DNA from: Pseudomonas sp. Tri1 | GTDB taxonomy: Bacteria > Pseudomonadota > Gammaproteobacteria > Pseudomonadales > Pseudomonadaceae | NCBI RefSeq assembly: GCF_017968885.1 | Contig: NZ_CP072913.1 | Location: 4,448,001 to 4,512,000, forward strand | Reading direction: 5' to 3' | Length of the DNA: 64,000 nucleotides | In this document: piece after piece, positions 34,770-51,681 of the stretch | Layout: the number at the start of each line of letters is the position of its first letter | How positions within the stretch are numbered: position 1 is the first letter of the stretch | The notes under the pieces: generated by a model | What the model was told of the DNA's origin: nothing | Seen by the model: the letters and a program-made list of their open reading frames with translations, nothing else | The model's database searches: none | Position numbers and translations under genes: made by a program

Positions 34770-35513
34770 TCAGATTTGCGCCAGGCCGCCGTCGACCGCT
34801 ATTTCGCTGGCGGTCATGAAGCTGCTGTCCTGCGACGCAAGAAAGGCGGCCGCTGCGCCGATCTCCATCGGCTCGGCCATGCGCTGGAGCGGGTTCATCG
34901 CGGCGAAGACCTTCATGCCTTCCTCGCCCAGCGCTTGTTTCGCAAGTTCGGTCGCCGTCGGCCCGGGCGACAGCACGTTGACCCGGATGCCGGAACCCTT
35001 CAGGTCCTGCGCCCAGGTCCGCGCGAGGTTGCGCACTGCCGCCTTGCTCGCGCTGTAGACGCTGAATGCGGGGGCGCCCGTGGTGCCGGCGCTCGATCCG
35101 GTCAGGATGATCGAACCACCCTGGCCCATCAGTGGCAGCGCCTTCTGGACGGTGAAGATCGTACCCTTCACGTTGGTGTCAAAGGTTTCGTCAATGTGCT
35201 CGACAGTGATTTCGCCGAGCGCAAGCGGGCTTCCCGCCCCAGCGTTGGCGAAGACGATGTCGAGGGCTCCGCGCTCGGCCTTCACCACCGCGTAGAGCCG
35301 GTCGAGGTCAGCGAGATTGGAGACCGAGCCCTTCACCGCGCGGGCATTGGGCCCGAGCTCAGCTACAGCAGCGTCGAGCGCTTCCTGTCGGCGGCCGAAG
35401 ATGAAGACGAAGGCGCCCTCCTCGATGAAGCGTTTTGCTGCGGCGAGGCCGATGCCGGTAGCGCCACCGGTAATCACGGCGGTCTTTCCATTCAATCTGG
35501 TCATGACGTGCAT
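34770..35513 (-). CDS. Short-chain dehydrogenase/reductase (classical SDR)
   Basis: 247 residues with all classical SDR features: T-G-G-A-T-G-I-G near residue 15, N-A-G-A-G in the second motif, catalytic Ser in L-T-G-S-S-A-G, Y-S-A-S-K as Tyr-x3-Lys, and S-P-G-P-T-A-T-E-L. The turn F-G-R-R-Q suggests NADP preference. ATG 35504 (M-T-R-L-N-G) is an alternative start. The second HxlR gene is divergent from it, the usual arrangement for an HxlR-controlled oxidoreductase. The substrate is unknown. Confidence 0.88.
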   Translation of the reverse strand: MHVMTRLNGKTAVITGGATGIGLAAAKRFIEEGAFVFIFGRRQEALDAAVAELGPNARAVKGSVSNLADLDRLYAVVKAERGALDIVFANAGAGSPLALGEITVEHIDETFDTNVKGTIFTVQKALPLMGQGGSIILTGSSAGTTGAPAFSVYSASKAAVRNLARTWAQDLKGSGIRVNVLSPGPTATELAKQALGEEGMKVFAAMNPLQRMAEPMEIGAAAAFLASQDSSFMTASEIAVDGGLAQI

Positions 35514-35616
35514 CCTTCATTGGAGTTGTACCCAAGCAGGAATTTGCTTGCTTGAGACGAGGATGCAGCGCTGATAACCTAAGGACAAGTATGCACCTTT
35601 TGGTAAGTATCAAAAA

Positions 35617-35979
35617 ATGACGACGACATCTGAAATCTGCGACACCGGATGCGGGCTCAACGCCACGCTGCGCATCATCTCGGGCAAGTGGAAACCGCTG
35701 GTCCTGTTTTTCCTGCGCGGCGGCCCGAAACGCTATGGCGAGCTCAAGCGTTTGATCCCTGGAGTCAGCGACAAGGTCCTGATCCAGCAGTTGAAGGATC
35801 TGGAAGCCGATCAGGTGCTTGCACGGACCGACTACAAGGAAGTGCCCCCGCGCGTGGACTACACGCTGACCCCGCTGGGCCGTAGTCTGGCGGATGCGAT
35901 CATCCCGCTGTGCACCTGGGGAACCGAGAACGCGGCGCAAATGGCAAGCATCTTCGCCAAGCGCGACGCTTTGGCCTAG
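35617..35979 (+). CDS. HxlR-family transcriptional regulator (second)
   Basis: The 120-residue protein has Cys residues near the start (I-C-D-T-G-C-G), then L-R-I-I-S-G-K-W-K-P-L-V-L-F-F-L, K-R-Y-G-E-L-K-R-L-I-P-G-V-S, K-V-L-I-Q-Q-L-K-D-L and the wing R-V-D-Y-T-L-T-P-L-G, all HxlR signatures. It is divergent from the classical SDR gene. The 103-base gap holds a direct aagtat repeat (35587 and 35605) and an acc-tttt-ggt palindrome as possible sites. Its operators differ from those of the first HxlR gene, so the two regulators are probably independent. Confidence 0.88.
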   Translation: MTTTSEICDTGCGLNATLRIISGKWKPLVLFFLRGGPKRYGELKRLIPGVSDKVLIQQLKDLEADQVLARTDYKEVPPRVDYTLTPLGRSLADAIIPLCTWGTENAAQMASIFAKRDALA

Positions 35980-36108: not shown

Positions 36109-37032
36109 TCAAAGCATGTGTCCGGCCCAGATATTGCGATTGACCAGATCGGTGGCAATCTCGATGAAGGCATCCCCGACAAATTTGGCAGCCGGACTGA
36201 CACGCCTGTCGGCAGGAAAAACCTGAACAAGCTTGCGCATGGGAATGGGGTCGACCAAGGGGGCTGCACTGAGCACACCGGCTTCGATTTGCGCGTAAAT
36301 TGATGCCAAAGGCAAAGCAGTCAAACCGAAGCCATTACGGACCAGGTCGATCATGGCGCCGAAGGAGTCTGCTTCAACGCTGGTCTTGAGCTTGATCCCG
36401 AGCTCACGCGCACAATTATCCAGAATCACGCGAAGGCTATGTCGAGCGCTTGGCAATACCAATGCCTGCTCAGCCAATGACTCAAAGGACACCGGCGTAT
36501 CAAGACGCAGGTTGGCGCTGGCGGGACCGACCAGCAGCAAGTTTTCCATCATCACCGGCACGATACGCAGCGTATGCAACGGTTGGGGGTCGTAAGAAAT
36601 CGCCAGTTCCAATTCGCCACGCTGGACCCAATCCAGCAGATAGCCGCTGAAGGCTGAGGAAAACCTGACGGCAAGATTCGGATGCACCTCCTTGATCTTG
36701 CGTACCAATGGAACGGTGACAATTTCCGCGACCGTCGGCGTCGTACCGATGACGACCGTTCCCCGAAAAGAGGTCTTTCCGCCCACAACAGAACTTCGAA
36801 TGGACTCCATTTCTTCCATGATTCGGGTGGCATGTGCCAGCACTTCACGGCCCGCATCGGTGATCTCCATGCCTCGTCCATGTCGATCAAACAGGTAGGC
36901 CCCGAGTTCTTTTTCCAACAGACGAATTTGCCTGCTCAGTGCCGGTTGTGCGATGTGAAGCCGGTCGGAGGCCTTGCTGAGACTGCCAAGCTCGGCCACA
37001 TGAATTAGGGTCTTGAGTTGAACGACATCCAT
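36109..37032 (-). CDS. LysR-family transcriptional regulator
   Basis: 307 residues from ATG 37032; the longer frame to 37281 is not protein-like. The N-terminal winged helix is complete: L-K-T-L-I-H-V-A-E-L-G-S-L-S-K-A-S, L-H-I-A-Q-P-A-L-S-R-Q-I-R and L-E-K-E-L-G-A-Y-L-F-D-R, followed by a substrate-binding domain with G-T-V-V-I-G-T-T-P-T. It is divergent from the MHS transporter gene that precedes the catabolic operon, so it most likely activates both in response to the imported acid or a CoA-pathway intermediate. Confidence 0.9.
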   Translation of the reverse strand: MDVVQLKTLIHVAELGSLSKASDRLHIAQPALSRQIRLLEKELGAYLFDRHGRGMEITDAGREVLAHATRIMEEMESIRSSVVGGKTSFRGTVVIGTTPTVAEIVTVPLVRKIKEVHPNLAVRFSSAFSGYLLDWVQRGELELAISYDPQPLHTLRIVPVMMENLLLVGPASANLRLDTPVSFESLAEQALVLPSARHSLRVILDNCARELGIKLKTSVEADSFGAMIDLVRNGFGLTALPLASIYAQIEAGVLSAAPLVDPIPMRKLVQVFPADRRVSPAAKFVGDAFIEIATDLVNRNIWAGHML

Positions 37033-37536
37033 TACCTGGCCAGTCAAAGTCGGGCTCGGCGCGAAATGCGTCGAAGGTAGAGTCAGTGTAAACGCATTAG
37101 CGCCCCTTGGAATGCCGCAGAAGCCGTGTCGCATGGGGAGTCGCGGCTTACGAGCGGCGGTATACCCTAGCCAGCCGGGGCTGCAAGACAAGTTATAGAA
37201 TTTCGGTATATCAGTTAGACCTGGCTGACGGCTTATTACCCTCGTCACTCTGCGGTAGCGTGCAATCAACGTCGACGCCAAGAGCGATCGACTGACTACA
37301 AGAATAAGATTCGAGGGTTTACGCCATGATTGACTACATTTCCCGTTACCTGACCGACCCGCCTGATACCGTCAGTGAGCAACTGACCTCTCATATACAT
37401 CCCCCCTCTTCATGTGCCTTGGTCGTCAAAGGATCACTGCAACTGCGCTAAGCACTTCAACACATCGAGTTAGCAACGTCGGACACGCATCAGCGTGCGC
37501 CTCGTATCGTCTCGCCTTGAAAAAAGGGTGAACAAA
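37033..37536. promoter_or_regulatory. Divergent control region of LysR and MHS transporter genes
   Basis: These 504 bases separate the two starts. A TATA-gaatttcgg-TATA inverted repeat near 37193-37211 has the size of a LysR box and lies where an activator could act on the rightward promoter. A 41-codon frame from ATG 37326 to TAA 37451, with gaggg nine bases ahead, could be a leader peptide or chance. No other coding signal is visible. Confidence 0.45.
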
Positions 37537-38913
37537 ATGTCCGCATCAACCAGCGACTCAACAATCCACGCTGCAAAGGCCGATCAGATGAAAAGTCCGA
37601 ATCGCGTCAGAGCAATCATGGGTGCCTGTTCGGGCAATCTCGTGGAGTGGTACGACTTTTTCATTTACGCCTACACCGCCATCTACTTCGCGGCTTCGTT
37701 TTTTCCCAAAGGTGACACCACGAGCCAACTGCTCGCTACAGCCGGCGTTTTTGCCGTCGGTTTTTTCATGCGCCCTCTGGGCGGTTGGATTTTTGGCTGG
37801 ATTGCCGATACCCGCGGCCGAAAGGTGTCGATGATTATCTCGGTATTCATGATGTGCGCCGGCTCCCTGCTGATTGCCGTTATGCCAACCTATGAAACCA
37901 TTGGTGTGGCTGCGCCGGTTTTGCTCGTCGTCGCCAGGCTGATTCAGGGCCTGTCCGTAGGTGCGGAGTACGGCACCGGCGCCACCTACATCAGCGAAAT
38001 CGCGACACCGGGCCGTCGCTGTTTCTATGGCTCGTTTCAGTACTTCACCATCATTGCCGGTCAGCTGCTGGCCTTGATGACCGTAGTCATTCTCCAGCAA
38101 ACCCTGACCGGCGAAGAGTTGCGCGAATGGGGATGGAGGATTCCGTTCTTCATCGGCGCACTGAGCTCGATCGTGGTGGTGTATCTGCGCCGCGCCATGC
38201 ATGAAACGGCCACCAAGAAGGACATGAGCCGCAAGGACGCCGGCTCTCTGCGCGGCATGTTCAAACACAAGCGCGCGGTTGCCCTGGTGGTGGCGTTCAC
38301 CATCGGCGGCTCGCTGTATTTCTATACCTTCACTACCTACATGCAGAAGTTCCTGGTGATCTCCGCCGGTTTCAGCCCGGAAACGGTCAGCTTCATCATG
38401 ACCGCGGCCCTGGTCGGTTTCATGCTTTGCCAGCCGCTGTTCGGCTTGCTCGCCGACCGTATCGGTATCAAGGCGCACATGCTGATGTTCTCCGGGCTGG
38501 CCATGTTGCTGGTGATCCCCCTGCTCTACTCGCTGCAGTCGGTCAGCAACCCATTCATGGCATTCGTGCTCGTGTTTGGCGGCCTGGCCATTGCGTCGCT
38601 CTACACGCCGATTGCCGGGATCGTCAAAGCCGAACTGTTCCCACCGGCTGTCCGTGCACTGGGGGTTGGATTTCCCTACGCGGTGGGCAACGCAGCATTT
38701 GGCGGCACCGCCGAATACGTGGCCTTGTCGCTTCGCTCACAAGACGTCGAGGCGTACTTTTTCTTCTACGTAGCGGCGGTCGTGAGTATCACCTTCATCG
38801 CCGCGATGCTGATGCCAAACCTGTCGCGTTACGGTTATATCAGCGGCTCAGGGGAGATTGAAGAACGCACCGGTTTGAAGGGCTGTCTTAAGCCGCATGC
38901 TGTGCGAGTCTGA
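37537..38913 (+). CDS. MFS transporter of the metabolite:H+ symporter (KgtP-like) family
   Basis: About 458 residues from ATG 37537 (AAGGGTG seven bases upstream). Twelve hydrophobic helices and MHS-family motifs are clear: G-N-L-V-E-W-Y-D-F-F-I-Y before helix 1, G-W-I-A-D-T-R-G-R-K between helices 2 and 3, R-L-I-Q-G-L-S-V-G-A-E-Y-G, and A-E-L-F-P-P-A-V-R in the second half. MHS members carry 2-oxoglutarate, citrate, itaconate and related acids with protons. A terminator follows, so it is a separate transcript from the catabolic operon. It is the probable uptake system for that pathway's dicarboxylate. Confidence 0.88.
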   Translation: MSASTSDSTIHAAKADQMKSPNRVRAIMGACSGNLVEWYDFFIYAYTAIYFAASFFPKGDTTSQLLATAGVFAVGFFMRPLGGWIFGWIADTRGRKVSMIISVFMMCAGSLLIAVMPTYETIGVAAPVLLVVARLIQGLSVGAEYGTGATYISEIATPGRRCFYGSFQYFTIIAGQLLALMTVVILQQTLTGEELREWGWRIPFFIGALSSIVVVYLRRAMHETATKKDMSRKDAGSLRGMFKHKRAVALVVAFTIGGSLYFYTFTTYMQKFLVISAGFSPETVSFIMTAALVGFMLCQPLFGLLADRIGIKAHMLMFSGLAMLLVIPLLYSLQSVSNPFMAFVLVFGGLAIASLYTPIAGIVKAELFPPAVRALGVGFPYAVGNAAFGGTAEYVALSLRSQDVEAYFFFYVAAVVSITFIAAMLMPNLSRYGYISGSGEIEERTGLKGCLKPHAVRV

Positions 38914-38939: not shown

Positions 38940-38970
38940 CAAGGGCCCATGTTTTATCTTGGGCCCTTTT
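38940..38970 (+). terminator. Rho-independent terminator after the MHS transporter gene
   Basis: Arms aagggccca and tgggccctt pair around an AT-rich loop and are followed by tttt. It sits 27 bases after the transporter stop and separates it from the catabolic operon. Confidence 0.8.
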
Positions 38971-39262: not shown

Positions 39263-39802
39263 ATGTCAACAGAAGCTGAACATACCGTGGGACAGGATTG
39301 GCAGGAGGACGTATTCCGCGTGCTCAAGGCCCACGACGTTAAACACGTGGTCTTCGTACCGGATGCAGGTCACTCGGCGGCCATCCGCATGTCGTATGCC
39401 GACCCGGACATCAAGGCCGTTGTCCTCACCACCGAAGAAGAAGGTATCGGCTACCTCGCCGGCGCCTGGCTCGGCGGTGAACGGGGCGCCCTCTTGATGC
39501 AATCGAGCGGTGTCGGTAACTGCATCAATACCCTGGCGCTTCAGGTGTGTGCCGGCTTCCCGCTGTTGATGGTGGTGACCATGCGCGGCGACTGGGCCGA
39601 ATTCAACGCATGGCAGAACCCGATGGGCCAGGCCACCGAAGCCTCTCTGAACCTGATGAAGGTCATGACCTGGCGCGCAGACGTTCCAGAAGACGTCGCC
39701 CCGCTGCTGCACGGTGCCGCGACCATGGCCTTCAACGGCGATTCGTCCACTGCCCTGCTGCTCGGCCAGCGCCTGATTGGAGAAAAGAAATGGGTCAAGT
39801 AA
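39263..39802 (+). CDS. ThDP-dependent 2-oxoacid decarboxylase, alpha subunit (sulfopyruvate/phosphonopyruvate decarboxylase-like)
   Basis: 179 residues from ATG 39263, supported by GGGAG six bases upstream; the open frame to 39113 is ignored. The protein is the pyrimidine-binding half of a ThDP enzyme: H-V-V-F-V-P-D-A-G-H near residue 28, the ThDP-activating Glu in T-T-E-E-E-G-I-G-Y-L-A-G-A-W-L, and L-L-M-Q-S-S-G-V-G-N. Split small subunits are typical of sulfopyruvate (ComDE) and phosphonopyruvate decarboxylases. The beta subunit gene overlaps by 13 bases. Together they would decarboxylate a 2-oxo acid to an aldehyde; the acid group of the substrate may be carboxylate rather than sulfonate. 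Confidence 0.85.
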   Translation: MSTEAEHTVGQDWQEDVFRVLKAHDVKHVVFVPDAGHSAAIRMSYADPDIKAVVLTTEEEGIGYLAGAWLGGERGALLMQSSGVGNCINTLALQVCAGFPLLMVVTMRGDWAEFNAWQNPMGQATEASLNLMKVMTWRADVPEDVAPLLHGAATMAFNGDSSTALLLGQRLIGEKKWVK

Positions 39803-40386
39803 GCGCAAACCACACCCTGTGCCGCCGCGAAGTGGTCAAGGCCTTGCTGGCCGACCGCAAAGACGTGCTGGTCGTGACCGGCCTGGGTTCGGCGTCCTAC
39901 GACGTCATGGCTGCCGGTGACAATGATCTGAATTATTACCTGTGGGCTGCCATGGGCAGCGCAATCACTGTGGGCCTGGGCCTGGCGAATGCGCAGCCAG
40001 ACAAATCGGTGGTGGTGGTCACCGGTGACGGCGAGTTGCTCATGGGGTTCGGCGCACTGGCCACGGTGGCACTGCAAAAGCCCGCCAACCTGACCATCGC
40101 GGTGCTGGATAACGGTCACTTTGGTGAAACCGGCATGCAAGTCAGCCACGCCGGCTTTGGTATTTCCCTGGATCAGGTCGCAAAGACTTGCGGCTTTAGC
40201 TGGACCGATGAAATCCGTGACATGGCAGGCGTACACGACCTGCGCGAACGCTTTGCAACGCGCGATGGCGTCAAGCTCGCGACGATCAAAATCAAGGCGC
40301 AAAACCCACCACGGGTGCTGCCACCGCGCGATGGTCACTACATCAAGAATCGCTTTCGTGCCGCTCTGGGTTTCAACCCGATCTGA
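39790..40386 (+). CDS. ThDP-dependent 2-oxoacid decarboxylase, beta subunit
   Basis: 198 residues from ATG 39790, a 13-base overlap with the alpha gene, with ggaga upstream. It carries the diphosphate-binding motif V-V-T-G-D-G-E-L-L-M near residue 79, ending at L-D-N (residue 108), the GDG-N Mg2+ signature. An earlier A-A-M-G-S-A-I-T-V-G-L-G segment also matches ThDP enzymes. It completes the active site with the alpha subunit. The product aldehyde could be the substrate of the semialdehyde dehydrogenase encoded at the end of the same operon. Confidence 0.86.
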   Translation: MGQVSANHTLCRREVVKALLADRKDVLVVTGLGSASYDVMAAGDNDLNYYLWAAMGSAITVGLGLANAQPDKSVVVVTGDGELLMGFGALATVALQKPANLTIAVLDNGHFGETGMQVSHAGFGISLDQVAKTCGFSWTDEIRDMAGVHDLRERFATRDGVKLATIKIKAQNPPRVLPPRDGHYIKNRFRAALGFNPI

Positions 40387-40452
40387 TTGCTCCCTACCCG
40401 GCCCCCGTCACGCAGGGCCGATGCCATGCGTGACGTGTTAAGGAGAATAATA

Positions 40453-41616
40453 ATGACTGACCGCAACTCTGAAGAGCTCAATGCCATCCGCGAGGGCGTA
40501 CGCGCTCTTTGCGCTGAATTCGATGCGGCTTACTGGCGTAAAGTCGACGAAGAAAAAGGCTTCCCGCAAACCTTCGTCAAGGCCCTGACCGATGCCGGCT
40601 GGCTGGCGGCGATGATTCCTGTCGAGTACGGCGGCTCCGGCCTCGGGCTGGCCGAGGCCTCGGTAATCCTGGAAGAAGTGAATCGCTGCGGCGGCAACTC
40701 CGGCACCGTACACGGGCAGATGTACAACATGTTCACCCTGCTGCGTAACGGTAGCGAGGCACAGAAAAGTTACTACCTGCCGAAACTGGCCAGCGGCGAA
40801 TTGCGCCTGCAATCAATGGGTGTGACCGAGCCGACTACCGGCACCGACACCACCAAGATCAAGACCACCGCCGTACGCAAAGGTGACAAGTACGTCATCA
40901 ACGGACAGAAGGTCTGGATCTCGCGAATTCAGCATTCCGACCTGATGATCCTGCTGGCGCGTACGACCCCTCTGGCCGACGTGAAGAAAAAGTCCGAAGG
41001 CATGTCGATCTTTCTCGTCGACCTGCGTGAGGCCATCGGTAACGGCATGACCGTGCAGCCGATCGCCAACATGGTCAACCACGAAACCAACGAGTTGTTC
41101 TTCGACAACCTCGAAATTCCTGCCGACAGCCTCATCGGCGAGGAAGGCAAAGGTTTCCGCTACATCCTGGATGGCCTGAACGCCGAGCGCACACTGATCG
41201 CCGCCGAATGCATTGGCGATGGTCGCTGGTTTATCGAGAAGGCCAGCGCCTATGCACGTGATCGCGTCGTGTTCGGACGCCCTATCGGGCAGAACCAAGG
41301 CGTGCAGTTCCCCATCGCTGAAGCACACATTGAAATCGAAGCGGCGGACCTGATGCGCTGGCGTGCCTGCGAGGAATACGACAGCGGCATCAATGCCGGG
41401 GCCAGCGCCAACATGGCCAAGTACCTGGCGGCGAAAGCCTCTTGGGAAGCCGCGAATGCCTGTTTGCAGACCCACGGTGGTTTTGGTTTTGCCTGCGAGT
41501 ACGACGTCGAGCGCAAATTCCGTGAAACCCGTCTGTATCAGGTGGCGCCTATCTCCACCAACCTGATTCTGTCGTACGTTGCCGAACACCTGCTTGAACT
41601 GCCGCGCTCCTTTTAA
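40453..41616 (+). CDS. Acyl-CoA dehydrogenase (branched-chain/methylsuccinyl-CoA-type candidate)
   Basis: 387 residues from ATG 40453 (AAGGAGA upstream). Fold landmarks are M-G-V-T-E-P-T-T-G-T-D near 122-132, a flavin strand V-W-I-S-R, F-G-R-P-I-G-Q-N-Q and T-H-G-G-F-G-F. The usual catalytic Glu of the Y-E-G-T motif is absent: the site reads L-Y-Q-V-A-P-I-S-T. A Glu245 in G-L-N-A-E-R-T lies at the position used by isovaleryl- and long-chain acyl-CoA dehydrogenases, which fits a branched substrate. ETF genes follow in the same operon, so electrons pass to ETF. A substituted succinyl-CoA is the likely substrate. Confidence 0.86.
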   Translation: MTDRNSEELNAIREGVRALCAEFDAAYWRKVDEEKGFPQTFVKALTDAGWLAAMIPVEYGGSGLGLAEASVILEEVNRCGGNSGTVHGQMYNMFTLLRNGSEAQKSYYLPKLASGELRLQSMGVTEPTTGTDTTKIKTTAVRKGDKYVINGQKVWISRIQHSDLMILLARTTPLADVKKKSEGMSIFLVDLREAIGNGMTVQPIANMVNHETNELFFDNLEIPADSLIGEEGKGFRYILDGLNAERTLIAAECIGDGRWFIEKASAYARDRVVFGRPIGQNQGVQFPIAEAHIEIEAADLMRWRACEEYDSGINAGASANMAKYLAAKASWEAANACLQTHGGFGFACEYDVERKFRETRLYQVAPISTNLILSYVAEHLLELPRSF

Positions 41617-41690
41617 AGGATCAGCGTAAAACCCAGTGCGTCTGCTTAAGCAGGCGCGACTGGGGAGCCATGACAGGAGAGATAATAATC

Positions 41691-42893
41691 ATGAGCCACC
41701 CCAAAGGCATCCGTCCGCTCGATGGCATTACCGTCGTCAGCCTTGAACATGCCATTGCAGCGCCCTTCTGCACCCGACAACTGGCCGATCTCGGCGCACG
41801 TGTCATCAAGGTCGAACGACCAGGCACGGGTGACTTCGCCAGGGGTTACGACCAACGCGTCAACGGCCTCGCCTCGCACTTTGTATGGACCAATCGCTCG
41901 AAAGAAAGCCTGACCCTCGATCTGAAACAAGATTCGGCCACCGAGGTGCTGGACAGTTTGCTGGCCACTGCTGATGTGCTGGTGCAGAACCTGGCGCCGG
42001 GTGCCGCAGCACGAATGGGACTTTCATTTGAGGCTTTACATCAGCGGTTTCCGCGCCTGATCGTTTGTGACATTTCAGGCTACGGCGCAGGCGGCCCCTA
42101 TGAAAAGAAAAAAGCCTATGACCTGTTGATCCAGAGCGAAGGCGGGTTCCTGTCGGTCACCGGCGGACCAGGTGAAGAAGAAATGGCCAAGGCCGGTTGC
42201 TCGATTGCTGACATCGCGGCCGGCATGTACGCCTACACCGGAATTCTGTCTGCATTGCTGTTGCGTGGACGCACTGGCGAAGGTAGCCACCTCGATGTGT
42301 CCATGCTGGAAAGCCTGGTCGAGTGGATGACCTACCCGATGTACTACGCCTACGACGGCGCTACACCTCCCCCTCGCGCTGGCGCCGCGCACGCCACGAT
42401 TTATCCCTATGGTCCCTTCCCCATCGGTGACGGCACCACAGTGATGCTGGGTTTGCAGAACGAACGAGAGTGGCAGCTGTTTTGCGACAAGGTACTGCTG
42501 ACTCCTGAACTGGCGAAAGACAAACGTTTCTCTGCCAACTTCAAGCGCGTCGAAAACCGCCAGGCGCTGCGGGCACTCATTGTTGAATCGTTCTCCACAC
42601 TCAATTACGACGCCGTGTTTGATCGGTTGGAGCATGCGCAAATTGCTAATGCCCAGGTCAATGACATGCAAGGTGTTTGGGACCATCCGCAACTTCAGGC
42701 GCGTGGCCGCTGGCGGGAAGTCGAAACCTCTGCCGGCACCGTGCCCAGCCTGATACCTCCAGGCAGCAATAGCGCATTCGAGCCACGTATGGATGCCGTA
42801 CCGGGCCTCGGCCAGCACACCGAACAGGTGCTCAAGGAACTGGGGCTAGGTACGGATCGTATTGAACAAATGCGCGCAGCCGGGGCGATTTAG
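41691..42893 (+). CDS. CaiB/BaiF family (class III) CoA-transferase
   Basis: 400 residues from ATG 41691; AGGAGA lies upstream. Class III signatures are present: P-L-D-G-I-T-V-V-S-L-E near the start, L-G-A-R-V-I-K-V-E-R-P near 35, R-S-K-E-S-L-T-L-D-L, and the catalytic Asp144 in K-A-Y-D-L-L-I-Q-S-E-G-G. G-S-H-L-D-V-S-M-L-E and later motifs complete the fold. It should transfer CoA, probably from succinyl-CoA, to the dicarboxylate. With the hydratase and lyase below it resembles the Ict/Ich/Ccl itaconate set of Pseudomonas. Confidence 0.9.
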   Translation: MSHPKGIRPLDGITVVSLEHAIAAPFCTRQLADLGARVIKVERPGTGDFARGYDQRVNGLASHFVWTNRSKESLTLDLKQDSATEVLDSLLATADVLVQNLAPGAAARMGLSFEALHQRFPRLIVCDISGYGAGGPYEKKKAYDLLIQSEGGFLSVTGGPGEEEMAKAGCSIADIAAGMYAYTGILSALLLRGRTGEGSHLDVSMLESLVEWMTYPMYYAYDGATPPPRAGAAHATIYPYGPFPIGDGTTVMLGLQNEREWQLFCDKVLLTPELAKDKRFSANFKRVENRQALRALIVESFSTLNYDAVFDRLEHAQIANAQVNDMQGVWDHPQLQARGRWREVETSAGTVPSLIPPGSNSAFEPRMDAVPGLGQHTEQVLKELGLGTDRIEQMRAAGAI

Positions 42894-42955
42894 CCTTGAG
42901 CTGAAAACAAAAAGCCTGCCTGCAACGATCAAAGTTTTTGAGAGAACACTGCCCA

Positions 42956-43705
42956 ATGAAGATCCTGGTAGCTGTGAAACGAGTGGTCGACTACAACGTT
43001 AAAGTTCGCGTCAAAGCAGACAATTCCGGCGTCGACCTCACCAACGTCAAAATGTCGATGAACCCTTTCTGCGAAATCGCCGTAGAAGAAGCCGTACGCC
43101 TGAAAGAAAAAGGCGTGGCGACTGAGATCGTCATCGTCTCCATCGGCCCGATCACCGCCCAGGAACAACTGCGCACCGCGCTGGCACTGGGTGCCGATCG
43201 CGCCATCCTCGTCGAATCCGCCGAAGACCTGACTTCCCTGGCCGTGGCCAAGCTGCTCAAGGCCGTTGTCGACAAGGAACAGCCATCGCTGGTGATCCTC
43301 GGCAAGCAAGCCATCGACAGCGACAACAACCAGACCGGCCAGATGCTCGCGGCATTGAGCGGCTATGGTCAGGGTACGTTTGCGTCCAAGGTTGAAGTGT
43401 CCGGCGACAGCGTTGCCGTGACCCGCGAAATCGACGGCGGCGCGCAGACGGTTTCCTTGAAACTGCCGGCTATCGTCACCACCGACCTGCGTTTGAACGA
43501 GCCGCGCTACGCGTCCCTGCCAAACATCATGAAAGCCAAGAAGAAGCCGCTTGAAGTGCTGACGCCTGACGCTTTGGGCGTTTCCACCGCCTCCACCAAC
43601 AAGACCGTAAAAGTCGAAGCGCCGGCTGCACGCAGCGCGGGCATCAAGGTCAAGTCGGTGGCTGAACTGGTCGAGAAACTGAAAAACGAAGCGAAGGTGC
43701 TTTGA
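42956..43705 (+). CDS. etfB: Electron transfer flavoprotein beta subunit
   Basis: 249 residues from ATG 42956. It starts [13 protein letters not shown], with [11 protein letters not shown] as the following helix, and later D-S-D-N-N-Q-T-G-Q and [19 protein letters not shown]. The last segment is the ETF-beta recognition loop with the conserved Leu that contacts acyl-CoA dehydrogenases. It carries AMP and pairs with the alpha subunit encoded 16 bases downstream. An ETF pair inside this operon indicates a dedicated electron carrier for the dehydrogenase at 40453-41616. Confidence 0.95.
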
Positions 43706-43721
43706 ATTGGGGAGCCTGATC

Positions 43722-44651
43722 ATGACTATCTTGGTAATCGCCGAACACGATAACAAGGCGCTGGCTCCGGCCACGCTGAACACCGTTGCTGCCGCTGCCA
43801 AAATCGGTGGCGATGTCCACGTCCTGGTAGCCGGGCAGGGCGCTGGCGCCGTTGCCGAAGCTGCTGCGAAAATCGCTGGCGTGGCAAAAGTGCTGGTGGC
43901 CGACAACGCCGCCTACGCTCACCAACTGCCGGAAAACGTTGCTCCTCTGGTTGCAGAGTTGGGCAAGGGCTACAGCCACATCCTGGCTGCCGCTACTTCC
44001 AATGGCAAAAACATCCTGCCGCGCGTTGCCGCTGCCCTGGATGTCGACCAGATCTCCGAGATTATCTCGGTGGAAAGCGCCGACACCTTCAAGCGTCCGA
44101 TCTACGCCGGTAACGCGATCGCAACCGTTCAATCGAACGCTGCGGTCAAGGTCATCACCGTCCGCGCCACCGGTTTCGACCCGGTTGCCGCCGAAGGTGG
44201 TTCGGCTGCCGTTGAAGCCGTAGGCGCTGCCCACGACGCCGGTATCTCCAGCTTCGTCAACGAAGAACTGGCCAAGTCCGATCGTCCGGAACTGACCGCT
44301 GCCAAGATCGTCGTTTCCGGCGGGCGTGGCATGCAGAACGGTGACAACTTCAAGCACCTGTACGCCCTGGCCGACAAGCTGGGCGCTGCCGTCGGCGCTT
44401 CCCGCGCGGCGGTCGACGCAGGTTTCGTACCCAACGACATGCAGGTCGGCCAGACCGGCAAGATCGTTGCGCCGCAGCTGTACATCGCCGTCGGTATCTC
44501 CGGCGCGATCCAGCACCTGGCCGGCATGAAAGACTCCAAGGTGATCGTTGCGATCAACAAGGACGAAGAAGCGCCGATCTTCCAGGTGGCCGATTACGGG
44601 CTAGTGGCGGATCTCTTTGAAGCGATTCCAGAAATGGCCGCCCTGGCCTGA
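43722..44651 (+). CDS. etfA: Electron transfer flavoprotein alpha subunit
   Basis: 309 residues from ATG 43722. N-terminal [10 protein letters not shown], a middle [10 protein letters not shown], then the C-terminal FAD domain with [26 protein letters not shown] and G-I-S-G-A-I-Q-H identify ETF alpha. It binds FAD and delivers electrons from the operon's acyl-CoA dehydrogenase to ETF:ubiquinone oxidoreductase at the inner membrane. It may duplicate housekeeping etfBA elsewhere in the genome; that cannot be seen here. Confidence 0.95.
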
Positions 44652-44676
44652 TCACTGACCGATTGGAGCGAACAAC

Positions 44677-45522
44677 ATGAACGGCAGTTCCGATTTTTCC
44701 GCCTGGATTGGACGACGTCAGGAAAGCCAGGACCGGATCAGTTTCACTCTGGTCAGACGCATCGCCGCGACATTGGGCGAGCCGGCACCACGACCTGGTG
44801 AGCCACTGCCGCCCCTGTGGCACTGGGCATTTTTTCAGGAGCCGGTGGGCGCCAGCGAACTGGGACCGGATGGCCATCCAGCACTTGGGGGCTTTTTGCC
44901 GCCGGCCCATAACCGCAATCGTATGTGGGCGGGTAGTCGACTTGAGTTTTACCAGCCATTGATGGTGGAGGCTGACGTGACCTGTGTATCAACCATTCTC
45001 AACGTCGAAGAGAAGCACGGTCGCACGGGCTCCTTGTTGTTTGTCACGGTACGCCATGAGTATTTCCAGGACGGCAAACGTGCTCTTCAAGATGAACAAG
45101 ACATCGTCTATCGGGAACCCACTCCTCCCAAATTGAGCGGCACCGAAGCACTCCCTGAAGGCCAATGGCTGGCACGGGTCGAGCCCTCAGCGACCCTGCT
45201 GTTCCGCTACTCCGCCGTCACCTTCAATGGCCATCGTATTCACTATGACTGGCCATACGTCACAGAGACCGAAGGTTACCCGGGATTGGTGGTGCATGGT
45301 CCTTTGATCGCCACCCTGAATCTGCGTGCCTTTACCAAAGCGCACCCGAACGCGCGCTTGATGCGCTTCACCTTCCGTGGCGTCCGGCCTTTGATTTCCC
45401 CTCACCCTTTCGAAGTCGGCGGACGCCTGATAGACAGCGGCAAGGCACAGCTCTGGGCAGGCAATCAGGACGGTACAGCGCAGATCGGTGAAGTCGAGTT
45501 CAACGCGGGAGAAACACCATGA
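44677..45522 (+). CDS. Itaconyl/mesaconyl-CoA hydratase-like protein (hot-dog, FAS1-like dehydratase)
   Basis: 281 residues forming a tandem hot-dog fold. The first half has W-H-W-A-F-F-Q-E-P and H-P-A-L-G-G-F-L-P. The second has the hydratase signature F-N-G-H-R-I-H-Y-D near residues 188-196, then Y-P-G-L-V-V-H-G-P-L. This is the arrangement of mesaconyl-C4-CoA and itaconyl-CoA hydratases. It should add water to an unsaturated dicarboxylyl-CoA, giving a citramalyl-CoA-type product. The downstream lyase overlaps by four bases, so the two are coupled. Confidence 0.87.
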   Translation: MNGSSDFSAWIGRRQESQDRISFTLVRRIAATLGEPAPRPGEPLPPLWHWAFFQEPVGASELGPDGHPALGGFLPPAHNRNRMWAGSRLEFYQPLMVEADVTCVSTILNVEEKHGRTGSLLFVTVRHEYFQDGKRALQDEQDIVYREPTPPKLSGTEALPEGQWLARVEPSATLLFRYSAVTFNGHRIHYDWPYVTETEGYPGLVVHGPLIATLNLRAFTKAHPNARLMRFTFRGVRPLISPHPFEVGGRLIDSGKAQLWAGNQDGTAQIGEVEFNAGETP

Positions 45523-46334
45523 ATACGTCCATTGTTCGCTCCGCCCTGTTTGTGCCGGCCACTCGTCCAGAGCGCATACCCAAGGCCATCGCTACCGGAG
45601 CGGACCGGGTCATTGTTGATCTGGAAGATGCCGTGCAGGAAAACCTCAAGGAACAGGCCAGGGATAACCTGGAGCGCTTCTTGAGTGACAATCCGGACGC
45701 CTCGATTCTGGTGCGAGTGAATGCCCTTGATCACTGGGCTCACGTAGCAGATCTGGAGCTGTGTCGACGACACACCGGCGTGATCGGAGTTTTGCTGCCC
45801 AAAGCAGAAAGCGCGGAGCACGTCCTCACGGCTGCCAATACCCAAAAGCCGATCTGGCCCATCATCGAAAGCGCCCTGGGCCTGGCCGAACTCCAAGCGA
45901 TTGCCCAGGCCCAGGGCGTTGAACGCTTGTCGTTCGGAAGCCTTGATCTGGGCTTAGACCTGAACTTGACCACCGGCAGCCATGCCGCCGAAGAGATCCT
46001 GAGTCACGCTCGATACGCAGTACTGCTTGCAACTCGGGTGGCTGGTCTCGCTCCGGCGCTGGATGGCGTGTTTCCTTCCATACAGGACACCGTCGGCCTG
46101 CACAGCACCGTTCAGTTTGCCCGCGACATGGGATTTGGTGGCGCGTTGTGCATCCATCCGAGCCAGGTGGCAATCATCCATCAGGCGTTAAAACCAAGCC
46201 CTGAAGAATTGCGCTGGGCGCAACGCATTATCGAAGCCGCCAGCTCAGGTGACGGCGTCTTCGTGCTGGATGGGCAAATGGTCGACGCACCGGTCATCGG
46301 TCGAGCGCGCTCCATTCTGGCGCGCGCTACCTGA
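45519..46334 (+). CDS. CitE-like CoA-ester lyase (HpcH/HpaI family; citramalyl-CoA lyase candidate)
   Basis: 271 residues of the CitE TIM barrel: R-S-A-L-F-V-P-A at the start, I-V-D-L-E-D-A-V with metal-binding acidic residues, L-V-R-V-N-A, W-P-I-I-E-S-A-L-G-L, L-S-F-G-S-L-D-L and C-I-H-P-S-Q-V near the end. These match the malyl/citramalyl-CoA and beta-subunit citrate lyase group. The ATGA overlap with the hydratase supports consecutive steps. It would cleave the hydroxyacyl-CoA to acetyl-CoA and a 2-oxo acid such as pyruvate. It could also handle a homologous chain. Confidence 0.9.
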   Translation: MNTSIVRSALFVPATRPERIPKAIATGADRVIVDLEDAVQENLKEQARDNLERFLSDNPDASILVRVNALDHWAHVADLELCRRHTGVIGVLLPKAESAEHVLTAANTQKPIWPIIESALGLAELQAIAQAQGVERLSFGSLDLGLDLNLTTGSHAAEEILSHARYAVLLATRVAGLAPALDGVFPSIQDTVGLHSTVQFARDMGFGGALCIHPSQVAIIHQALKPSPEELRWAQRIIEAASSGDGVFVLDGQMVDAPVIGRARSILARAT

Positions 46335-46401
46335 TACCTGACTCAGCGACGGCAGTTTGCTTCGAAGCTACGCATTCATTCCCACCTCGCAGGACGGTGT
46401 C

Positions 46402-47793
46402 ATGACTAATGTTTCCAGCCTTACCCATGCCATTTCGATCAACCCCGCCAATGGCGAACAGATCGGCCACTACCCATTCGAATCCGAGTCGGCACTGGAG
46501 GCTGCACTGTCGCGTGCCACTGCCGGGTTCTCGGTCTGGCGACGAAAAACCGTAGAAGATCGCTCGCAGTCGTTGATCGCTTTGGCTCAGGCATTACGCG
46601 ACAACGCTGTAACAATGGCGAACATGATCACCCTGGAGATGGGCAAGCCCACCATGCAGGCGCGCGGTGAAATTGAAAAATGTGCACAGCTTTGCGAGTG
46701 GTACGCCGAACACGGCCCCGCCATGTTGGCTGCCGAACCCACACAGGTTGAGGGCGGCAAGGCACGAATTGAATATCGTCCACTGGGCCCGATTCTCGCT
46801 GTGATGCCGTGGAACTTTCCTGTCTGGCAGGTGCTTCGCGGCGCCGTTCCGGCGTTGATTGCCGGCAATACCTACGTTCTCAAACATGCGCCGAACGTGA
46901 TGGGATGCGCTTACCTGCTGCTGGAAGCCTTCAAGCAAGCCGAGTTCCCTGAAGGCGTGTTCGAGGTCATCAACGTCACCCCAAAGGGCGTTTCCACAGC
47001 CATCGCTGATCCACGCATCGCCGCAGTGACGCTCACTGGCAGTGTTCGAGCTGGCATGGCTATTGGCTCGCAGGCGGGTGCAGCCTTGAAGAAGTGCGTG
47101 TTGGAACTGGGTGGCTCAGATCCATTCATTGTGCTCAACGACGCCGACCTGGACGAAGCCGTCAAAGCCGCTGTGATTGGCCGCTACCAAAACACCGGAC
47201 AAGTCTGCGCGGCGGCCAAACGCCTGATTGTCGAGCAAGGCGTTGTCGAGGAGTTTACCCGCAAGTTTGTCGAATCTACCTGCAAGTTGGTCGTTGGCGA
47301 TCCGCTGGCCACAGACACTTACATCGGCCCCATGGCCCGCTTTGATCTGCGCGATGAACTGGATCGTCAGGTCCGAGACACCTTGGAAGAAGGCGCGACC
47401 TTGTTGTTGGGCGGCAGAAAGGCTGAAGGGCCTGGCAACTTCTACGAGCCTACGGTGCTCGGAGATGTCACCGACCAGATGACCTCATTCAAACAGGAAT
47501 TGTTTGGACCCGTCGCATCGATCATCACTGCGCGGGACGCCGCACATGCACTCCAACTGGCCAATGACAGTGAGTTCGGGCTCGCCTCGACCATCTACAC
47601 ACGCAATCTCGAACTGGCCCAGAAGCTGGCCGGCGAACTGGAAACCGGAGGCGTGTTCATCAATGGTTATTGCGCAACCGACCCACGCGTCACTTTCGGA
47701 GGCGTAAAGAAAAGCGGTTTTGGCCGTGAGCTGTCGCATTTCGGTGTGCGCGAATTCTGTAATGCGCAGACCGTCTGGCTGGACCGTTACTAA
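46402..47793 (+). CDS. NAD(P)-dependent succinate-semialdehyde dehydrogenase-like aldehyde dehydrogenase
   Basis: 463 residues from ATG 46402; the open frame to 46357 is ignored. ALDH features are complete: V-M-P-W-N-F-P-V-W near residue 135, T-L-T-G-S-V-R-A-G, catalytic Glu235 in L-E-L-G-G-S and Cys269 in N-T-G-Q-V-C, then F-G-P-V-A. The P-W-N-F-P-V-W form and length match YneI/Sad-type succinate-semialdehyde dehydrogenases. It could oxidise the aldehyde made by the decarboxylase at the start of the operon to a substituted succinate, which the CoA-transferase would then activate. Confidence 0.9.
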   Translation: MTNVSSLTHAISINPANGEQIGHYPFESESALEAALSRATAGFSVWRRKTVEDRSQSLIALAQALRDNAVTMANMITLEMGKPTMQARGEIEKCAQLCEWYAEHGPAMLAAEPTQVEGGKARIEYRPLGPILAVMPWNFPVWQVLRGAVPALIAGNTYVLKHAPNVMGCAYLLLEAFKQAEFPEGVFEVINVTPKGVSTAIADPRIAAVTLTGSVRAGMAIGSQAGAALKKCVLELGGSDPFIVLNDADLDEAVKAAVIGRYQNTGQVCAAAKRLIVEQGVVEEFTRKFVESTCKLVVGDPLATDTYIGPMARFDLRDELDRQVRDTLEEGATLLLGGRKAEGPGNFYEPTVLGDVTDQMTSFKQELFGPVASIITARDAAHALQLANDSEFGLASTIYTRNLELAQKLAGELETGGVFINGYCATDPRVTFGGVKKSGFGRELSHFGVREFCNAQTVWLDRY

Positions 47794-47888
47794 CAACAAT
47801 CAAGTCGCCAAGCCCCGCGAGACCTCTCGCCGAGCCAAAGATGAGCGAGTCCGAAAAAGACTCGTCTCCCCCTCATGAGGAGCTTTTG

Positions 47889-48802
47889 ATGCGTGCCTTC
47901 CCTGTAATCCTGGGCGCTACCCTAACTGCGGCCTTAATCAGTACCCCACTCATGGCTGCCGAACCTACCGGCACGCTCGAGAAAATCAAGACCTCGGGAC
48001 CATCACCCTGGGCCACCGAGACTCGTCCATTCCCTTCTCTTACATTGCCGACGGATCCGGTCAGCCGGTGGGCTACTCCCATGACATTCAATTAAAGATT
48101 GTCGAGGCGATCAAGCAAGAACTCGGTATGCCCAAGCTGAACGTACGATACAACCTGGTGACATCACAGACGCGAATCCCGCTGGTGCAAAACGGCACTG
48201 TGGATCTGGAGTGCGGCTCCACAACCAATACCGCCGAGAGAGCCCGGCAGGTCGACTTCTCGGTCGGTATTTTTGAAGCCAGCACCCGCCTGTTGGTCAG
48301 GAAGGATTCGGTCTACAAAGATTTCCAGGATCTCTACGGAAAGAACGTAGTAACGACTGCTGGCAGCACTGCCGAGCGGATGCTCAAGGTCATGAATGCC
48401 GAGAAAAAGATGGGCATGAACGTCATCTCAGCCAAAGACATTGGCGAGTCTTATCAAATGCTCGAGTCCGGTCGCGCCGTTGCGTTCATGCAGGACGACG
48501 CATTGTTGGCGGGTGAGATGGCCAAGGCAAAGAAACCGGAAGATTGGGTGGTGACCGGCACCCCGCAATCCAACGAGATCTATGGTTGCACAATGCGTCG
48601 GGGGGATCCTGATCTCAAAAAGATCGTGGATGACTCGATCAAGTCACTTTTCGCCTCGGGAGAAATCAACACCATCTACGATAAATGGTTTACTCAGCCC
48701 ATCCCTCCCAAAGGCTTGAATCTCAAATTCCCCATGAGCACAGAGCTCAAAACAATCATCGCCCACCCCAATGACCAACCGGCGCCAGAAAAGGCTCTTT
48801 AG
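47889..48802 (+). pseudogene. Amino-acid-type ABC periplasmic binding protein, frameshifted
   Basis: The gene starts at ATG 47889 with GAGGAG upstream and a signal peptide ending M-A-A-E-P. After K-I-K-T-S-G the frame is lost near 47998. A one-base gain there would give T-I-T-L-G-H-R-D-S-S-I-P-F-S and continue into the second frame, G-Q-P-V-G-Y-S-H-D-I-Q, which runs to 48802 with C-G-S-T-T-N-T and W-F-T-Q-P-I-P-P. The family (glutamate/aspartate-binding, GltI-like) is clear. No permease or ATPase gene follows. Either the gene is a recent pseudogene or the assembly lacks one base. Confidence 0.85.
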
Positions 48803-50247: not shown

Positions 50248-50604
50248 CCGGTCTGACGCCATCAAGAAGGCCTTGTCGATGCCTGGCTTCAGCGCAGACG
50301 TGTTCCTGGGATTGTTCGACGATGAAACCTATGTCGAGCAGAGCTGAAGGAAGAACAGGCCATTGAGCAGGCTGTGGACAAAGACGCCGAGGTCCTGCGC
50401 CAGAAACAGGAACGCCCTGACTGGCTCAACTCAGCGATCGAGACGATCGGCAAGGCCGTAACCAGCCACGAACTGAAGATGCTGAACGTCAAGTACATCC
50501 GCGAAGCGACCCGCCGCAACGAGCCGACTTTCATCGCCCGTATCACTCGCGCTTTTGAAGAGCGCAAAGCCGTCCTGGAGCCAGGCAAGGAGAACGCAGC
50601 ATGA
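50248..50604 (+). pseudogene. Remnant of a phage recombination/replication gene, frameshifted
   Basis: One frame reads S-D-A-I-K-K-A-L-S-M-P-G-F-S-A-D-V-F-L-G-L-F-D with no start, then stops near 50346. The next frame continues A-E-L-K-E-E-Q-A-I-E-Q-A-V, then R-P-D-W-L-N-S-A-I-E-T-I-G-K and ends E-P-G-K-E-N-A-A at 50604. Together they look like the C-terminal part of one phage gene lying before Gp157 and SSB, where single-strand annealing proteins are usual. The 5' part is missing. Confidence 0.5.
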
Positions 50605-51160
50605 CCCAGCTCTACGCGCTCACCGGCAAGCTGAACTCCAGGCCATGGCCGACACGGATGATGAGGGCCTGAGAGAGGCCTTGCAGCACGCAATAGACGA
50701 GATCCAAAGCGAGTTCGAGGTGAAGGCCGACAACATCGTCATGCTGCGCCGGAACATCGAAAGCGATGTAACCGCGATTGAAAACGAGATCGAACGCCTG
50801 GCCGAGCTCAAGCGCATCAAGACCAACAGTGTGTCGCAGATCAGCGACTACCTTCGCCGGAACATGGAGGCTGCCGGGCTCAAGTCGATCAAGCGTCCGC
50901 TGTTCACCATCACCCTGGCACTGGGCAAGGAGAAGGTCATCGTCGACAACGAAGATGCGGTGCCGGACGAGCTGACCGCCGTGAAAACCAGCATCGCACC
51001 GGACAAAAACGCCATCGCCGCCAAGCTCAAGGAAATCCGCGAACACAACGAGGCGGTCCGCAAGCGCATGGCCACCGGCGAAGACGCCGAGCACGAACTT
51101 CTGCCCGAACCCACGTGGGCCCACCTTGAGCGCGGTGATAGCGCCATTCGCATCAAATAG
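50601..51160 (+). pseudogene. Siphovirus Gp157-like protein, frameshifted near the start
   Basis: ATG 50601 begins M-T-Q-L-Y-A-L-T-G-K-L, then the frame is lost near 50632 by what looks like a four-base deletion. The other frame continues A-E-L-Q-A-M-A-D-T-D-D-E-G and runs to 51160 with D-N-I-V-M-L-R-R-N-I-E-S-D, Y-L-R-R-N-M-E-A-A-G and W-A-H-L-E-R-G-D. This is the coiled, charged pattern of Gp157 (phage-resistance/early protein). About 165 of 187 residues remain in one frame, so a shorter product from an internal start is possible. Confidence 0.7.
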
Positions 51161-51168
51161 GAGGCCCC

Positions 51169-51681
51169 ATGGCCCGTGGAGTAAACAAAGTCATCCTGGT
51201 CGGCACCTGTGGCCAGGAGCCAGATGTCCGCTACCTGCCCAACGGCAACGCGGTCACGAACTTGAGCCTTGCCACTAGCGAGCAATGGACGGACAAGCAG
51301 ACCGGCCAGAAGGTCGAGAAGACCGAGTGGCACCGCGTCACGTTGTTCGGGAAGGTGGCCGAGATCGCCGGCGAGTACCTGACAAAGGGGTCCCAGGTCT
51401 ACATCGAGGGCAAGCTGCAAACTCGGGAGTGGGAGAAGGACGGCATCAAGCGCTACAGCACTGAGGTGCACGTCGACATGCGCGGCACGATGCAGATCCT
51501 GGGATCGCCGGCGCACCGCCAGGCTGGCACGAATGCCCAGCGTCCCACCGGGCAACGTCAGCAACAACCCAGGCCACAACAGGCTTCCCCGCAAAACAGC
51601 CAGCAAGGCGCGCCGCCGGACTTCGACAGCTTCGACGACGACATCCCCTTCGCCCCTCATCACCATTTAAACGGTGCCTGA
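51169..51681 (+). CDS. ssb: Single-stranded DNA-binding protein (phage type)
   Basis: 170 residues. The OB-fold is standard: [36 protein letters not shown] and [13 protein letters not shown] Gln/Pro-rich linker leads to the acidic tail [10 protein letters not shown]. Unlike chromosomal SSB, nine extra residues (A-P-H-H-H-L-N-G-A) follow the tip, which may weaken binding of host SSB partners. It protects ssDNA during phage replication or annealing. Confidence 0.95.

Follow-up and report, generated by a model that had tools for sequence, protein, structure and literature searches.

What does a two-subunit decarboxylase dependent on thiamine diphosphate (ThDP) do in an operon whose other genes resemble those of methylsuccinate breakdown? 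The operon lies in a stretch of 64,000 nucleotides from Pseudomonas sp. Tri1 (contig NZ_CP072913.1, positions 4,448,001 to 4,512,000), referred to here as the window; positions given below are those of the window. The window belongs to a genome of 6.7 Mb in a single contig (G000), and the nearest named relatives at the locus are Pseudomonas. A preliminary description of this DNA had proposed a ten-gene operon in which the decarboxylase and a semialdehyde dehydrogenase form the front end of a route through methylsuccinate. We consider it likely, from comparison of sequences and gene neighbourhoods, that nine genes (39263-47793) encode one route leading from a methyl-2-oxoglutarate through methylsuccinate to acetyl-CoA and pyruvate.

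All the enzymes named in that description were found on the + strand where it had placed them, as open reading frames with family matches. Nine intact genes are closely packed between 39263 and 47793, with spacing that ranges from a 13-base overlap between the ThDP alpha and beta genes to gaps of up to 74 bases. They encode, in this order, ThDP decarboxylase alpha (39263..39802) and beta (39790..40386), an acyl-CoA dehydrogenase (40453..41616), a CaiB/BaiF CoA-transferase (41691..42893; Pfam PF02515), electron transfer flavoprotein (ETF) beta (42956..43705; PF01012) and alpha (43722..44651; PF01012 and PF00766), a hydratase (44677..45522), a CitE-like lyase (45519..46334) and an aldehyde dehydrogenase (46402..47793). 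The proposed tenth gene, for a periplasmic binding protein, has a broken frame.

We compared the back half of the operon with known methylsuccinate genes. For this reference set, 298 Pseudomonas genomes were searched with the lyase (106/298 positive at E 1e-60) and 17 lyase stretches were fetched. In 14 of them (L154-L167) the lyase gene is not beside a ThDP gene, and by gene content these were assigned to the kind of the PA0878-PA0883 itaconate/methylsuccinate cluster (Ich, Mcd, Msi, Ict, Ccl); the other 3 continue ThDP loci. The comparison with methylsuccinate-cluster proteins, also envisaged in the preliminary description, gave high identities. The acyl-CoA dehydrogenase was 91-94% identical to the copies in 13/13 of the ThDP-free stretches that contain one (L154-L159, L161-L167; the L160 stretch starts past this gene), and three aligned copies gave 91-93%, which marks it as an ortholog of (RS)-methylsuccinyl-C4-CoA dehydrogenase (Mcd, PA0879 type). 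The CoA-transferase, of the itaconate/(R)-methylsuccinate CoA-transferase (Ict) type, was 78-81% identical to its counterpart in 14/14 stretches. The hydratase, a FAS1/MaoC-type protein of the itaconyl-CoA/mesaconyl-C4-CoA hydratase (Ich) type, was 63-74% identical to 13 other Pseudomonas cluster copies, and its closest solved structure was PDB 8khg, 'Itaconyl-CoA hydratase' (448.6 bits, residues 4-276); no NCBIfam family matched it at 1e-5. The lyase, of the (S)-citramalyl-CoA lyase (Ccl) type, was 59-73% identical to copies in ThDP-free Pseudomonas clusters, with PDB 8khl, 'Probable acyl-CoA lyase beta chain', as closest solved structure (393.9 bits), and its gene was the sole match in the host genome at E 0.001. 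We take both 8khg and 8khl to be P. aeruginosa proteins.

The enzymes of this module have been characterised. According to excerpts of PMC12290011, PA0879 and its relative in C. necator have (RS)-methylsuccinyl-C4-CoA dehydrogenase activity, and the characterised CoA-transferase strongly prefers (R)-methylsuccinate. Itaconate and (R)-methylsuccinate are the main substrates of such CoA-transferases, with only weak activity towards (S)-citramalate, (S)-methylsuccinate and glutarate. Growth on methylsuccinate requires PA0879 (excerpt of PMC9875883), and wild-type P. putida KT2440 fails to grow on this compound according to the same paper. Passages of both papers describe the conversion of methylsuccinate to acetyl-CoA and pyruvate by these back-end enzymes. 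Because of the high identity to the cluster copies and the characterised activity of the PA0879 type, the predicted back half of the window operon is the P. aeruginosa-type methylsuccinate module minus the isomerase. The operon shares the Ict, Mcd, Ich and Ccl types with PA0878-PA0883; however, it has a different gene order, lacks the methylsuccinate isomerase, and adds the ThDP decarboxylase, the Sad-like dehydrogenase, a dedicated ETF and a nearby KgtP-like transporter. As in the ethylmalonyl-CoA pathway, methylsuccinyl-CoA would be oxidised, hydrated and cleaved. Unlike that pathway, in which C1-CoA esters lead to glyoxylate and propionyl-CoA (as given in part of PMC12290011), the window type would proceed through C4 esters to pyruvate and acetyl-CoA. 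Two other loci, L157 and L159, contain operons of LysR, Mcd, Ict, Ich and Ccl genes (with ETF in L157) and neither ThDP genes nor isomerase; these are likely a sister or ancestral form of the window operon.

The front end was examined by family models and solved structures. ThDP superfamily domains are present on both subunits (PF02776 on alpha, PF02775 on beta), and the beta subunit has the ThDP-binding motif GDG...N at residues 79-108. Comparison with the models of sulfopyruvate decarboxylase (ComDE), which had been proposed as a check, gave matches that did not reach the curated cut-offs (TIGR03845, 104.8 bits for alpha, cut-off 147.95; TIGR03846, 132.8 bits for beta, cut-off 221.5). The phosphonopyruvate decarboxylase model TIGR03297, which describes one fused chain, gave 52.6 (alpha) and 101.9 (beta) bits against a cut-off of 312.5. 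The sole solved relative of the beta subunit at E 1e-4 was a putative phosphonopyruvate decarboxylase beta subunit (63 bits). The window enzyme resembles ComDE in having two separate ThDP subunits of the same superfamily with the GDG...N motif, but differs from ComDE and phosphonopyruvate decarboxylase in scoring below the cut-offs and in its genome-wide link to methylsuccinyl-CoA dehydrogenase, presented below. The nearest solved structure of the aldehyde dehydrogenase was PDB 8qmq, 'Succinate semialdehyde dehydrogenase [NAD(P)+] Sad' (661.3 bits, whole chain); in comparison with Sad (YneI), a methylated semialdehyde is the predicted substrate. Since a dehydrogenase of the succinate-semialdehyde type here joins a 2-oxo-acid decarboxylase to the methylsuccinate module, methylsuccinate semialdehyde would be the intermediate, and this in turn points to 3- or 4-methyl-2-oxoglutarate as the substrate of the decarboxylase. 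The route given in the preliminary description is therefore supported in outline; as for the 3-methyl compound that it named, the 4-methyl isomer is an equally good candidate substrate.

The decarboxylase might instead act on an unrelated 2-oxo acid, such as 2-oxoglutarate, sulfopyruvate or phosphonopyruvate, and merely adjoin a methylsuccinate/itaconate cluster. This would agree with the nearest named families being the sulfopyruvate and phosphonopyruvate decarboxylases, with one plasmid record in which the ThDP alpha protein is labelled phosphonopyruvate decarboxylase, and with the existence of cluster versions free of ThDP genes (L154-L167). However, all curated cut-offs for the sulfo- and phosphonopyruvate families were missed, and apart from that label no sulfonate or phosphonate gene was annotated in the 10 plasmid ThDP loci opened (of 89 records found), whose gene tables are incomplete. 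On these grounds the sulfo- and phosphono-analogues, offered earlier as an alternative, were rejected as the main explanation. Plain 2-oxoglutarate was rejected because its decarboxylation would lead to succinate, for whose use the downstream genes are not required. Moreover, the association with Mcd holds without close linkage. We therefore regard an unrelated substrate as unlikely.

This association was quantified in two genome samples. The ThDP beta gene was present in 17 of the 298 Pseudomonas genomes, host included. In 17/17 of these the ThDP alpha, ThDP beta and acyl-CoA dehydrogenase genes are adjacent, and hence the arrangement is not due to chance. Of the gene order whose recurrence elsewhere was in question, this part recurs in all 17 of these genomes; the Sad-like gene is not invariant. 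The lyase gene was found anywhere in the genome in 16/17 genomes with ThDP and in 90/281 others (p = 4e-7); the only ThDP-bearing genome without it, G076, is a fragmented assembly. In a sample of 398 Pseudomonadota genomes, ThDP beta (E 1e-40) was present in 17 and an Mcd-type gene (E 1e-120) in 64. The latter occurred in 16/17 ThDP-bearing and 48/381 ThDP-free genomes (Fisher 5e-13; 15/16 without the host), and counted by genus in 8/9 and 39/203, respectively (p = 2.7e-5). G646 was the only ThDP genome of this sample without an Mcd-type gene.

We also analyzed 80 ThDP loci of the genome_contigs set, which were retrieved by the beta subunit; an alpha homolog was found in the stretch in 80/80. 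An Mcd-type gene (>=60% identity) lies inside the stretch in 40/80 loci. Whole genomes were searched for 35 of the remaining 40, and 30/35 carry Mcd outside the stretch (60-81% identity; a partial match in G306). The five misses were G303 (58%, partial), G304, G324, G325 and G327. Apart from this partial match at 58% and from second copies within genomes that already have one, no further match exceeded 49% identity. One case of dispersal is G252, in which a 19.9-kb stretch (L110) has the ThDP, Mcd and Sad-like genes without Ict, Ich or Ccl, a full classical cluster (L161) lies approximately 1.1 Mb away, and an aminotransferase gene occupies a third site (L208). These data support a tie between the decarboxylase and methylsuccinate catabolism even without close linkage.

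Among the partners of the decarboxylase, the Mcd-type dehydrogenase is thus the one conserved most tightly, which bears on a second alternative. The input could be unsaturated: 4-methylene-2-oxoglutarate would be converted through itaconate semialdehyde to itaconate and itaconyl-CoA, with Mcd serving side substrates only. 4-Methyleneglutamate is a plant amino acid, and enzymes of these CoA-transferase and hydratase types serve in itaconate use as well. In such a route, however, Mcd would be superfluous, yet it is this most conserved partner and its ETF is encoded in the operon. We consider an unsaturated input quite unlikely. A pure itaconate cluster was rejected for the same reasons, namely the conserved dehydrogenase and the ETF genes in the operon.

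Returning to methylsuccinate as the intermediate, we looked at its stereochemistry. The (S)-(R)-methylsuccinate isomerase gene (MmgE/PrpD family) is absent from the window and had no match in the host genome at E 1e-20. It was found in 0/32 Pseudomonas ThDP stretches (L029-L043, L046, L109-L124; some come from the same genome and several end at contig edges) and in 12/14 ThDP-free Pseudomonas stretches. The PA0881 isomerase is needed only for growth on (S)-methylsuccinate, as stated in an excerpt of PMC9875883. A front end that delivers (R)-methylsuccinate alone would need no isomerase, and its absence is weakly in favour of such a front end.

To see what might feed the decarboxylase, we analyzed the neighbouring genes of related loci. 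An aspartate-type aminotransferase gene (E 1e-150) was present in 15/17 Pseudomonas genomes with ThDP and in 19/281 others (p = 3e-14; 34/298 in total), the two ThDP genomes without it being the host and G088. It lies near the ThDP genes in 11/15 and on another contig or far off in G070, G076, G081 and G252. P. mandelii (L030) is one of the species that carry the aminotransferase. The closest structural match of this protein was PDB 6f77 (aspartate aminotransferase A, 504.6 bits). Since the aminotransferase and the lyase are associated also in genomes without ThDP (14/19 versus 92/279, p = 7e-4), these data suggest that its product can enter the branched C5 pool in other ways as well, or that both genes mark one lifestyle.

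Of the stretches around aminotransferase copies away from ThDP genes, 10/10 have at least one RraA-family gene and 6/10 have three; the same LysR type occurs in 8/10, an alpha/beta hydrolase in 5/10 and a sodium:alanine-type symporter in 2/10. In L032 (6125-8087) and L208-L217, one to three distinct RraA-family proteins are encoded in a row ahead of the aspartate-type aminotransferase. The aminotransferase/RraA module is also near ThDP genes in Pseudogulbenkiania (L076) and Burkholderia latens (L095), and is partly visible on a B. cenocepacia plasmid (L026), where the stretch starts inside an annotated RraA-type gene. The RraA-type proteins had been considered as proof of a 4-hydroxy-4-methyl substrate; this was dropped, because an acidic residue that we take to be part of the RraA-type aldolase motif is missing in all three proteins.

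Genes of the pyroglutamate hydrolase kind were found as well. PxpA-type genes occur in 7/80 genome_contigs and 3/10 plasmid ThDP loci. In Mesorhizobium (L088, L091) a related aminotransferase is accompanied by biotin-carboxylase and PxpA-type genes, and in G081 (L210) PxpB, PxpC, PxpA and accBC-type genes start approximately 2 kb past the aminotransferase. A glutamate-type binding protein (>=60% identity) is encoded in 4/80 ThDP loci, and a Na:dicarboxylate symporter in L043 and L124. Taken together, the aminotransferase and Pxp-type genes with transporters of the KgtP, GltI and Na:dicarboxylate types point to inputs that are glutamate-like and able to exist as pyroglutamates, that is, methylglutamates. 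The proposed role of the decarboxylase and semialdehyde dehydrogenase as a front end is thus supported by their co-occurrence with the module, by Sad as nearest structure, and by the 2-oxoglutarate/glutamate-type transporters and aminotransferase near related loci.

Some loci outside Pseudomonas have additional genes. On a Bosea plasmid (L019, NZ_CP042333.1, 2144-18141) the ThDP-Mcd-Ict-Ich-Ccl set lies downstream of an NADP isocitrate-dehydrogenase-type gene (717.6 bits, cut-off passed) and two MmgE/PrpD genes, an arrangement that would suit local formation of the 2-oxo acid from a substituted isocitrate. In rhizobial and related loci (L023, L024, L078, L083, L088, L091) the predicted ThDP pathway is accompanied by several genes of a set comprising a KefF-like NAD(P)H oxidoreductase, a glycine-oxidase-like FAD enzyme, a short-chain dehydrogenase/reductase (SDR), VOC and Pxp-type proteins; these clusters possibly encode a longer pathway that starts with a ring compound containing nitrogen. 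Unassigned neighbour frames were clustered, and the representatives scanned with Pfam include a TctC receptor (11 loci), an ABC-transporter ATPase (8) and an alpha/beta hydrolase (4); most of the largest clusters of such frames were taken as antisense shadow frames, although not each was checked.

The natural substrate could also be a larger or differently substituted 2-oxo diacid (e.g. 3-carboxymethyl- or alkyl-), from which the lyase would free a 2-oxo acid other than pyruvate. The Bosea genes for isocitrate dehydrogenase-type and MmgE/PrpD proteins would suit this, with substituted tricarboxylates as possible inputs elsewhere, and in Paracoccus a tricarballylate gene pair lies approximately 10 kb off. 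On the other hand, in Pseudomonas both the dehydrogenase and the CoA-transferase very closely resemble the characterised type, and the chief substrates of the characterised CoA-transferases are itaconate and (R)-methylsuccinate. We think a larger diacid very unlikely.

We favour a methyl-2-oxoglutarate, for which the route would run as follows. In relatives, methylglutamate would be transaminated to methyl-2-oxoglutarate; the host, without a close aminotransferase, would either import the 2-oxo acid by way of its KgtP-like transporter or rely on a different aminotransferase. The two-subunit ThDP enzyme would convert 4-methyl- or 3-methyl-2-oxoglutarate to methylsuccinate semialdehyde, which the Sad-like dehydrogenase would oxidise to (R)-methylsuccinate. 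From there, acetyl-CoA and pyruvate would be formed by the CoA-transferase, the methylsuccinyl-C4-CoA dehydrogenase and its dedicated ETF, the hydratase and the lyase. Gene content, back-end orthology and co-occurrence were observed directly; the decarboxylase substrate, step order and stereochemistry we infer from them. More tentatively, the operon may belong to a pathway, widespread in proteobacteria, by which methylated glutamates and the corresponding lactams are used, with methylsuccinate as a natural central intermediate; it is somewhat doubtful that the pathway extends so far. Such a pathway would account for the retention of methylsuccinate genes by soil bacteria. Its order would be (pyroglutamate-type hydrolase), aminotransferase, methyl-2-oxoglutarate decarboxylase, methylsuccinate semialdehyde dehydrogenase and methylsuccinate module. 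The 4-methylglutamate family occurs in plants, and 3-methylglutamate in peptide antibiotics; our best guess is that one of these supplies the natural substrates.

Several observations weigh against this route. In terms of curated models, the Sad-like protein missed the cut-off of NF010575 (761.8 bits, cut-off 855), the aminotransferase that of PRK06107 (526.2 bits, cut-off 617) and the lyase that of the RipC_Ccl model (NF038242; 172.1 bits, cut-off 375). The CoA-transferase was under the NCBIfam cut-offs of all 7 matched families, and neither the Mcd-type dehydrogenase nor the RraA-type proteins of relatives reached theirs. The three RraA-type proteins that lack the acidic residue do not fix the methyl position, and the aminotransferase has no close match in the host genome (best 35%). 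The sampled genomes are also related to one another, a single genus accounting for nine of the 17 in the phylum sample that carry ThDP, so that the p values of both samples, the Fisher values included, overstate certainty.

The semialdehyde dehydrogenase is a further difficulty. An aldehyde dehydrogenase of either type was found at the identity cut-off in just 23/80 genome_contigs stretches, many of which end early, so in many genomes semialdehyde oxidation would be encoded elsewhere or performed by other enzymes. L029, L033, L039 and L042 have no Sad-like gene within approximately 10 kb downstream, in L031 this gene is reduced to a 132-aa frame, and a different dehydrogenase family is used in Pseudomonas sp. 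BN102 (L043), Bosea and Sinorhizobium, the enzymes of the latter two being at most 34% identical to that of the window. As the hydratase and lyase of Bosea and Sinorhizobium are just 40-44% identical to those of the window, the exact products of these loci may also differ. With regard to the isomerase, it is missing also from the ThDP-free L157 and L159; the Mesorhizobium ThDP loci L024, L088 and L091 carry an isomerase-like MmgE/PrpD gene beside the module (among the reference genes, the L024 copy matches the Pseudomonas isomerase genes best, at 61-64%); and G070, G079 and G252, which have ThDP genes, carry the isomerase gene in a second cluster (L160-L162).

The earlier statement that no operon with all these steps is described held in the open-licence literature searched. 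Among the matches listed from these papers we found no description of the decarboxylase-semialdehyde dehydrogenase front end, of the operon or of the association, nor any catabolic route through decarboxylation of 3- or 4-methyl-2-oxoglutarate. As far as these searches show, the downstream chemistry is known and what is new is the front end on a known pathway. According to an excerpt of PMC12290011 (2025), methylsuccinate had no known natural route of synthesis before gut bacteria were recently found to reduce itaconate. In part of PMC11345546, 4-methyl-, 4-hydroxy-4-methyl- and 3-methyl-2-oxoglutarate are given as natural products, and the ethylene-forming enzyme of P. savastanoi is reported to convert 4-methyl-2-oxoglutarate partly to methylsuccinate in vitro, by other chemistry. 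If the proposed route is correct, it would provide an aerobic source of methylsuccinate inside the cell, define a family of ThDP decarboxylases that act on a new class of substrates, and give bacteria an undescribed route for consuming methylated glutamate-like compounds.

The genes around the operon were also assigned. A transporter gene of the major facilitator superfamily (MFS) lies upstream (37495..38913, + strand) and belongs to the KgtP (2-oxoglutarate permease)-like subfamily; it passed the cut-off of NCBIfam NF007710/PRK10406 (583.8 bits, cut-off 550), a model that we take to be that of KgtP. Divergent from it is a LysR-type regulator gene (36109..37281, - strand; PF00126 and PF03466), in which the family match starts approximately 83 codons into the listed frame. 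Both genes accompany the operon in most fetched Pseudomonas relatives, where a LysR of the same type is 73-96% identical. The MFS gene is directly followed by a GC-rich hairpin and a run of T's (38941..38968, + strand; -19.1 kcal/mol, z -5.1; 0/200 shuffles fold as low), likely its terminator, which was not among the sites listed by a consensus terminator scan. Because of this position of the hairpin, the predicted operon probably begins downstream of it. In one Pseudomonas (G252) a gene for a PAAR-Ntox44 protein (L110, 11489-12607) separates the transporter gene from the ThDP genes.

The broken gene at the end of the operon (47890..48802, + strand) encodes a glutamate/aspartate-type periplasmic binding protein, whose mature part gave 322.2 bits with NF008063 (cut-off 375, missed). 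The frame is broken near the start: the signal peptide (from 47890) and the mature part (to 48802) are in different frames. The gene is open in L031, L032 and L036 (305-320 aa), so in the window strain either the gene was lost recently or the break stems from an error in the sequence. A divergent pair of genes for an SDR oxidoreductase and an HxlR regulator (34770-35979) lies upstream of the LysR gene. Approximately 2 kb past the operon, genes for a Siphovirus Gp157-like protein and a single-strand-binding protein (50555-51681) probably belong to a prophage or other mobile element that adjoins it.

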